Part shown: one piece after another, positions 20,558 through 24,487 of the stretch
How positions within the stretch are numbered: position 1 is the stretch's first letter
Layout: each line of letters starts with the position of its first letter
The notes under the pieces: generated by a model
The model's input: only the letters and a program-made list of their open reading frames with translations
Database searches by the model: none
Told to the model about the DNA's origin: nothing
Translations under genes and position numbers: made by a program
Source of the DNA: Chitinophagales bacterium
GTDB lineage: Bacteria; Bacteroidota; Bacteroidia; Chitinophagales; CAIODY01
Length of the DNA: 33,621 nt
Direction of reading: 5' to 3'
Assembly (NCBI GenBank): GCA_947449695.1
Contig: CANFST010000034.1
Span: 1 to 33,621 of the forward strand

Positions 20558-21226
20558 ATGAGTTTATCAAAAAGTTTCACTTCCTCTATCGGTAAGAAAT
20601 TAGTAATGGGTATTACTGGTTTGTTTTTAATTTCTTTCTTAGTAGTTCACGTTTCTGTCAACTCCATGTTGTTTTTGAATGATGGTGGCGAATCATTTAA
20701 TGCCGCTGCGCATTTTATGAGTCACAATATTATTATCAGAATAATGGAAGTAGTATTGTTTGCTGGCTTGATTGCTCATACAGTTCAAGGATTGATGCTC
20801 ACCATGCAAAATAATTCAAAGCGTCCTGTGAAATATGCAGTGAATCCAGGAAATGCAACCAGCAAATGGTACAGTCGTTCAATGGGAATCTTAGGTTCGT
20901 TGTTATTGATGTTTTTGGTTATTCACTTGTCACATTTTTGGGTTGAAACCAAAGAAGCATTGTATTTGAATGGTGATGCGCCAATGAATTCTTATGAAGA
21001 AGTAAAAGAAACATTTTCGCAATTGTGGGTTGTTATAGTTTATGTATTGGGCGTTATTTCATTAGGATGGCATTTGATTCATGGCTTCAGCAGCGCTTTT
21101 CAAACATTAGGATTGAATCACAAAAAGTATACACCGATAATTAAAATGTTGGGTGTGGCTTTTTCTGTAATTGTTCCATTGATTTTTGCAGCAATGCCGA
21201 TTTATTTTTTTGTGATGAGTAAATGA
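20558..21226 (+). CDS. sdhC: Succinate dehydrogenase/fumarate reductase cytochrome b subunit
   Basis: A 222-residue integral membrane anchor with five transmembrane segments, the B-type (single-subunit, di-heme b) arrangement. It starts KSFTSSIGKKLVMGITGLFL. Histidines placed to ligate heme occur in VVHVS, AAHFMSHN, GLIAHTVQG, VIHLSHFW and GWHLIHGF. It links SdhAB to the menaquinone pool in the inner membrane. It is the first gene of sdhC-[four-helix bundle]-sdhA-sdhB and is preceded by a perfect promoter. Its stop codon lies only two bases before the left arm of the inverted repeat that surrounds the next gene. Confidence 0.95.
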   Translation: MSLSKSFTSSIGKKLVMGITGLFLISFLVVHVSVNSMLFLNDGGESFNAAAHFMSHNIIIRIMEVVLFAGLIAHTVQGLMLTMQNNSKRPVKYAVNPGNATSKWYSRSMGILGSLLLMFLVIHLSHFWVETKEALYLNGDAPMNSYEEVKETFSQLWVVIVYVLGVISLGWHLIHGFSSAFQTLGLNHKKYTPIIKMLGVAFSVIVPLIFAAMPIYFFVMSK

Positions 21227-21228
21227 GT

Positions 21229-21249
21229 AAATTAGAAGATTAGAAAATG
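21229..21249 (+). repeat. Left arm of 21-bp inverted repeat around the four-helix-bundle gene
   Basis: The sequence AAATTAGAAGATTAG followed by AAAATG. Its reverse complement recurs at 21643-21663 with one difference in 21 (A/G). The last three bases are the start codon of the enclosed gene, so a folded transcript would bury that AUG in the stem. Confidence 0.85.
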
Positions 21250-21612
21250 ATTGAAACAACAGACAATATCATTCTGAATAAAACAATTGAATTTTCTTTG
21301 TCAATAATTAAGTACACAGAAAGATTGGAAGAATTGAAAAGATATGTGATTGCAAAACAATTGTTGAGAGCTGGAACTTCTATTGGTGCTAATGTTCACG
21401 AGGCACAGGATGCTGAAAGTAAAGTTGATTTTATTCACAAATTAAAAATTGCAGTAAAAGAATTAAACGAAACAAAATATTGGTTGGTGCTTTGTGCAAA
21501 ATCTGAAAACTATCCAAATTGTGATTCGTTGATGGAACAAATAAAAATGGTTGAAAGAATTTTGAACAAAATAATTTCAACTGCAAAAAATAAATTGAAA
21601 CAAAATATTTAA
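21247..21612 (+). CDS. Four helix bundle protein (23S rRNA intervening-sequence protein family)
   Basis: A 121-residue all-helical protein of the S23/IVP family. Conserved positions: AKQLLRAGTSIGANVHEAQ, SKVDFIHKLKIAVKELNET and KYWLVLCAKS, with helix four ending in Lys-rich AKNKLKQNI. The founding members are encoded in intervening sequences of 23S rRNA in Leptospira and Coxiella. They form pentameric barrels related to Avd of diversity-generating retroelements, and their function is not established. Here the gene is inserted between sdhC and sdhA, an operon where it has no metabolic role. It is bounded by a 21-bp imperfect inverted repeat (21229-21249 and 21643-21663) whose left arm includes the ATG. 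Confidence 0.93.
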   Translation: MIETTDNIILNKTIEFSLSIIKYTERLEELKRYVIAKQLLRAGTSIGANVHEAQDAESKVDFIHKLKIAVKELNETKYWLVLCAKSENYPNCDSLMEQIKMVERILNKIISTAKNKLKQNI

Positions 21613-21642
21613 ACAGAAATTTGAGATAAGGATTGAAAATTT

Positions 21643-21663
21643 CATTTCCTAATCTTCTAATTT
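21643..21663 (-). repeat. Right arm of 21-bp inverted repeat around the four-helix-bundle gene
   Basis: CATTTCCTAATCTTCTAATTT, here given as CATTTC then CTAATCTTCTAATTT, is the reverse complement of the left arm with one mismatch. A further related stretch, AAATTTTCTAATT (21666-21678), sits between it and the sdhA start codon. Confidence 0.85.
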
Positions 21664-21678
21664 CCAAATTTTCTAATT

Positions 21679-23655
<1,977 letters not shown>

Positions 23656-23725: not shown

Positions 23726-24487
23726 ATGGAACATTACAACATGAATTTAACCTTGAAAGTTTGGCGTCAAAAAAATGCAACTGCACAAGGAAATTTTGAA
23801 AATTATCAAGTAAAAAATATTTCCAGCGAAATGAGTTTTCTGGAAATGATTGATGTTTTAAACGAGCAATTAAATGCTGAAGGTGGTGAACCTATTGCGT
23901 TTGACCACGATTGTCGCGAAGGTATTTGTGGCAGTTGTAGTATGCATATTAATGGTAGAGCACATGGCCCTTGGGATGCAACGACTACTTGTCAGTTGCA
24001 CATGAGAGCATTTAAAGATGGCGATACCATCACCGTAGAACCTTGGAGAGCAGCAGCTTTTCCAGTGATTCGTGATTTGGTAGTTGACCGAAGTGCATTT
24101 GATAGAATACAACAAGCAGGTGGTTTTGTATCTGTAAATACGGGCAATGCACAGGATGCGAATTGTTTACCCATTCCAAAAGATGATGCAGATTTATCAT
24201 TTGCAGCAGCATCTTGTATCGGTTGCGGAGCTTGCGTTGCAGCTTGTAAAAATTCGAGTGCGATGTTATTCGTTTCTGCAAAAGTTTCGCAGTTTGCTTT
24301 GTTGCCACAAGGTCAACCAGAAAGAACTTCACGTGTATTAAATATGGTGGCCCAGATGGATAAAGAAGGCTTTGGAAGTTGCACGAATACTGGTGCCTGC
24401 GAAGCTGAATGTCCGAAAGAAATATCTTTGACTAACATTGCAAGGTTGAACAGAGAATATATGAAGGCAAGTTTTTTAGCGGAATAA
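23726..24487 (+). CDS. sdhB: Succinate dehydrogenase/fumarate reductase iron-sulfur subunit
   Basis: A 254-residue electron-transfer subunit between the SdhA flavin and the quinone. The [2Fe-2S] cysteines are in [14 protein letters not shown] with the fourth in TTCQLHM. The second domain carries [18 protein letters not shown] and [15 protein letters not shown] for the [4Fe-4S] and [3Fe-4S] centres. I start at the ATG at 23726 ([16 protein letters not shown]); a TTG start at 23696 would lie in the intergenic hairpin, and the ATG at 23741 is another possibility. It is the last gene of the operon; a strong terminator follows. Confidence 0.96.

Follow-up and report, generated by a model that had tools for sequence, protein, structure and literature searches.

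The sdhCAB operon of a Chitinophagales bacterium raises the question why a small gene for a four-helix-bundle protein, bordered by inverted repeats, lies between sdhC and sdhA, and what these borders do. The locus is part of a stretch of 33,621 nucleotides, here called the window, for which an original prediction from the letters alone had proposed a mobile, non-autonomous cassette or an RNA-level intervening sequence (IVS) related to those of 23S rRNA.

Anatomy of the cassette and of its family

The cassette and its host operon comprise the following features.

20558..21226, + strand: sdhC, succinate dehydrogenase membrane subunit (Pfam Sdh_cyt, E 1.5e-06)
21215..21250, + strand: left arm, 4.5 tandem octamers, ATGAGTAA ATGAGTAA ATTAGAAG ATTAGAAA ATGA (read from the sequence)
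21247..21612, + strand: four-helix-bundle gene of the 23S_rRNA_IVP / S23p family, 121 aa (PF05635, E 2.9e-23; period-8 clade)
21642..21677, - strand: right arm, reverse complement ATTAGAAA ATTTGGAA ATTAGAAG ATTAGGAA ATGA (read from the sequence)
21679..23655, + strand: sdhA, flavoprotein (Pfam FAD_binding_2 and Succ_DH_flav_C)
23726..24487, + strand: sdhB, iron-sulphur subunit, next gene of the host operon (open reading frame and cysteine pattern)

The predicted 21-bp inverted repeat was confirmed from the sequence: positions 21229-21249 (AAATTAGAAGATTAGAAAATG) match 21643-21663 (CATTTCCTAATCTTCTAATTT) with one mismatch, the left part lying 2 bases after the sdhC stop codon (21224-21226) and the right part 15 bases before the sdhA ATG (21679). 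This core is right as far as it goes, but the true arms, overlooked together with their clade-specific period, are 36 nt each and consist of tandem octamers (unit ATTAGAAR), with 30 of the 36 positions matching. The left array takes in the final sdhC codons with the stop as well as the ATG that opens the enclosed gene, whereas the sdhA ATG is one base past the end of the right array. SdhC itself ends in MSK in the window and in LTK in congener G002. The arms frame an open reading frame that is sense to sdhC and sdhA, and its product, for which a family-profile search gave PF05635 alone, belongs to a family with the solved relatives 2gsc and 2rld; the proposed four-helix-bundle gene is indeed present.

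At the level of sequence, inverted tandem arrays around a sense gene with co-directional neighbours are a family-wide trait, one that returns in 160+ IVP genes of several phyla. The genome of the window has six such genes, and at least one occurs in 52 of the 61 genomes of the order sample. Among 90 copies, 40% had own arms that matched with a score of at least 15, against 0.6% of arms cross-paired between copies, and the lag-7 autocorrelation was 0.38 in the flanks against 0.26-0.28 in far flanks and genes. Replication with 78 named Bacteroidota copies gave 53% for own arms and 9% for cross-paired arms, here with lag 8, and inverted heptamers were found in most plasmid copies examined (Cyanobacteria, Spirochaetota, Chloroflexota). 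Comparable arms thus frame most copies, in line with the prediction that they accompany the family and not just this gene. The genes are co-directional with both neighbours in 68/77 and 59/64 copies (baseline 45%, p ~1e-15); the distance between the upstream stop and the beginning of the left arm is typically 3-4 nt, and that between the end of the right arm and the next start codon about 13 nt. Arrays have a median length of 4.5-5 units. We found no paper in the open-access literature that connects inverted heptamer arrays outside rRNA with IVP genes. In Dolichospermum (Cyanobacteriota; L299) and Ca. Chlorohelix (Chloroflexota; L303), the plasmid-borne four-helix-bundle gene lies 3' of a helicase gene and 5' of DNA methylase genes, an order resembling that of a phage-defence operon.

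Since the genome of the window is a draft of 99 contigs, the cassette could be a chance product or an assembly artefact of a metagenome contig. The controls speak otherwise. The inverted repeat of the window scored 19, while the best of 3000 first-order Markov resamplings of its flanks reached 17, and a scan of 802 kb (stretches of this genome and of one related genome, loop ~200-1000 nt) gave only eight long-loop inverted repeats with a score of 18 or more, seven of which enclose an IVP gene. The cross-pairing control points the same way, and named isolates and complete plasmids show matching anatomy. At the family level this reading is already refuted, and for the window cassette we give it practically no weight. 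A strict genome-wide array scan had low sensitivity and missed most known arms.

The period of the arrays follows the clade of the protein. Clade B, which includes the window protein, shows lag 8 in 72 of 74 copies, as against lag 7 in 71 of 87 for the rest (Fisher 4e-27). In 20 genomes that have both types, clade B had lag 8 in 20/20 cases and clade A lag 7 in 21/30, and a within-genome paired comparison gave the expected order in 19 of the 20. Because the period differs by clade within the same genomes, genome background is no explanation. Arm-unit similarity also grows with protein identity, and the pairing of protein and array, judged from these alignments and counts, is well supported. 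The rule that the clade sets the period is strong but not absolute: some lineages outside clade B have period 8, for example three Flavobacterium copies, and in the order sample alone the period label changed 7 times on the tree, not significantly different from 7.7 in shuffled labels.

Insertion history and gene-less hairpins

In two congeners whose SdhA is 98-99% identical, the sdhC-sdhA gap is 73 and 94 bp and holds no IVP gene, and in nearly all other members of the order examined it is 4-158 bp. In G014, which belongs to a different family of the order, this gap also holds an IVP gene, but the arm unit there is another, heptameric one (TAGGATT), and the insertion is therefore independent. 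The cassette is thus not present in all distant relatives, and close congeners have gap-only sites, as one would expect of the inserted cassette that had been predicted. The compared junctions identify it as a derived insertion, which probably entered this essential energy-metabolism operon recently, after the genus had diversified. For other cassettes of this genome and of congener G001, the congeners have gaps of 7-106 bp or other hairpins, and at one further junction a congener carries an 83-bp gene-less hairpin of the window's type in place of an IVP cassette. Mobility, understood as lineage history, is well supported by these sites; it is inferred from lineages, and the comparisons turned up no within-species polymorphic insertion, target-site duplication or transposition enzyme. 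Hairpins with a score of at least 15 were present at 5 of 134 junctions and at 2 of 10 IVP-free orthologous sites, numbers too small for a hot-spot claim.

Some junctions have a history of their own. At L002 (contig C4 of the window's genome, G000) an IVP cassette is found, while congeners instead have GxxExxY (PF13366) cassettes with their own inverted short-repeat arms (L205 in G001 C113, L206 in G002 C187). The 94-bp sdhC-sdhA gap of G001 (L038) resembles a hairpin without a gene; its ends, GAACGCTGATT.../...AATCTGCGTTC, are of the same type as those of GxxExxY cassette L166. A short hairpin (GTTCGACAAGCTCACCATGA.../...TCATAGTGAGCTTGTCGAAC; L203) occurs at the junction that holds IVP copy L071 in G001. 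The G001 ortholog of IVP copy L003 (L069, C23:30241-30555) has an in-frame TGA, whereas the G002 ortholog is open.

For three members of the genus, the arm-unit pattern of the window matched 58, 76 and 37 times and its reversed control 9, 5 and 1 times; these counts refer to matches, with overlapping registers and coding matches included, and not to loci. When 20 matching loci were read, 15 (among them L365 and L355) proved to be arrays or hairpins that lie at gene borders and enclose no gene, and gene-less hairpins with this octamer unit are, from the loci read, dispersed in the genus. The other five lie in coding sequence and were set aside. Octamer-like arrays in coding sequence resembling type IX secretion C-terminal sorting domains were seen at L347, L348, L349 and L351. 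An apparent mraY ends in a one-sided octamer array at G000 C49:2950-3330, with a GxxExxY-type hairpin (AGCACACGGATT...AATCCGTGTGCT) immediately behind it.

The gene-less hairpins and gap-only sites would also suit an ordinary non-autonomous, MITE-like DNA element that carries a passenger gene and is mobilised by a transposase of the host or of an insertion sequence. In this reading the arms are plain terminal repeats and the orientation reflects a need for host transcription; the symmetry of arm mismatches (G-U versus A-C, see below) agrees with this as well. However, the arm unit varies among copies of one genome, yet both ends of each copy agree, and the period tracks the protein clade within genomes. 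Furthermore, the compared sites showed neither a shared terminal motif nor a visible target-site duplication, the congener gaps being too dissimilar to align between gap-only and filled sites. We regard such an element as rather improbable.

At three orthologous junctions, which hold other IVP copies than that of the window, dN/dS was 0.055-0.10. The alignments thus show that the IVP gene is under purifying selection where this is measurable, at orthologous sites of other copies, so the protein has some function that carriers retain. The view that the element is self-limiting and merely tolerated fits poorly with these values. They could be accommodated by an intercistronic regulatory hairpin that is kept by the host, S23p autoregulating its own mRNA and the operon, and hairpins being exchanged because the host uses them. 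Besides the low dN/dS (0.06-0.10, other copies), the position of the start codon within the arm and the presence of other hairpins or a GxxExxY cassette at orthologous junctions of congeners would agree with this. On the other hand, most relatives have compact junctions without a cassette, the host operons are functionally unrelated, and the spread across phyla is wide, so that we consider host-kept regulation unlikely.

Function of the arms and of the enclosed protein

If the arms act in RNA, they would form a stem in which RNase III splits sdhC from the sdhAB mRNA, and this would be the reason for the sense orientation. There is a direct precedent in the Coxiella 23S rRNA, and the sense orientation and intercistronic position of the copies agree with it. 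As for the RNA stem of the original prediction, a stem closing the window element is predicted in both the MFE and the centroid fold; the whole element folded no better than shuffled sequences (z -0.07). Arm mismatches showed no G-U excess (65 of G-U type, 82 of A-C type, p 0.19). With no bias of G-U over A-C, the mismatches give no sign that selection favours pairing of the arms as RNA over pairing as DNA, and a DNA-level role of the arms fits equally. Moreover, simple excision requires neither a period rule nor conservation of the protein. That RNase III processes the sdh transcript is plausible on homology alone, but as the full account of the cassette an RNA-level IVS seems to us a serious, if somewhat improbable, possibility.

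The explanation that we consider probable combines these elements: an IVS-type cassette inserted in sense orientation at sdhC-sdhA, with an S23p protein that recognises its own arrays. An S23p/IVP gene framed by inverted octamer arrays would have entered the junction, and an S23p ring, a pentamer in the one structure described, would recognise the repeats of its own arms, each contact taking up a single unit. Such recognition may help the hairpins to spread or persist, acting in cis on the cassette that carries the gene and in trans on hairpins without one. The arms, when co-transcribed with sdhCAB, might pair, loop out the gene and hide its start codon, as homology to the 23S IVS suggests, and RNase III could, by the same homology, find a site in the paired arms between sdhC and sdhA. 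An S23p that recognises its own array, thereby maintaining or spreading hairpins, is the most economical model. The Xanthomonas protein is described as a homopentamer of four-helix bundles (PMC4990558); a median of 4.5-5 units would suit a five-subunit ring, which is only suggestive.

Comparison with known systems

The GxxExxY (PF13366) cassettes are similar in that a small gene lies between inverted short-repeat arms, at the same junctions in congeners. Their protein is unrelated, however, the units are irregular without a 7/8 peak, and the sense bias is weaker (16/26). The REPIN-RAYT system likewise combines a rare gene-bearing copy with inverted repeats and many gene-less intergenic hairpins, whose repeats are related to those of that copy. 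RAYT is a catalytic HUH transposase and REPIN arms are REP palindromes, whereas the window protein is not an HUH/Y1 transposase, the arms are tandem 7/8-mers instead of REP palindromes, and we know of no catalytic activity of S23p. The cassette may thus work like REPIN-RAYT, by analogy, without being a member.

Arrays of TAACTGA and other heptanucleotides occur in intergenic regions of Bacteroidetes and Cyanobacteria, often beside start codons (PMC4679880). They share the tandem 7-nt intergenic repeats, but are direct and almost never inverted, and no enclosed gene was linked to them there (PMC4679880).

The closest relatives are the IVSs of 23S rRNA. The Coxiella burnetii IVS has tandem GACAGAT heptamers, a 28-bp terminal stem and a sense S23p open reading frame, and RNase III cuts inside the stem (PMC4990558). 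Both elements have a sense S23p/IVP open reading frame and a length of ~430-460 nt, terminal inverted repeats (the 28-bp stem in Coxiella, 36-nt arms in the window) and short tandem repeats at the 5' end (heptamers and octamers, respectively). The window cassette differs in lying between protein genes and not in a 23S rRNA helix, and the decaying reading frames of rRNA IVSs contrast with the purifying selection in its relatives. A 23S rRNA gene was not found in the genome of the window, and 23S rRNA DNA gave no match among the loci compared. With an S23p/IVP gene and IVS-like arms between sdhC and sdhA, the predicted IVS relative in an operon was recovered, and the cassette is an IVS-type element residing in a protein operon, with all structural features of the Coxiella IVS but the site.

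Because anatomy and protein family are shared, we infer that the rRNA IVS is most readily understood as the form, resident in rRNA, that a more widespread element takes. What IVS elements and S23p do has been a puzzle for decades, as work on them had dealt with rRNA, a setting that lets the gene decay; the same anatomy now turns up in protein operons across many bacteria, where the gene is conserved, and IVP cassettes emerge as a common source of hairpins inside essential operons. The rule that the protein clade sets the repeat period predicts what S23p binds, which makes its function directly testable. More tentatively, and with more doubt than confidence, S23p/IVP proteins might form rings that read tandem repeats, the spacing of their subunits setting the 7- or 8-nt period, and might drive the spread of inverted-array hairpins through operon junctions across phyla. 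They would then make up a REPIN-like system without a transposase, and the rRNA IVS would be no more than its branch in rRNA. The match of repeat length to protein type connects a poorly understood rRNA parasite with an element that is scattered through ordinary gene clusters.
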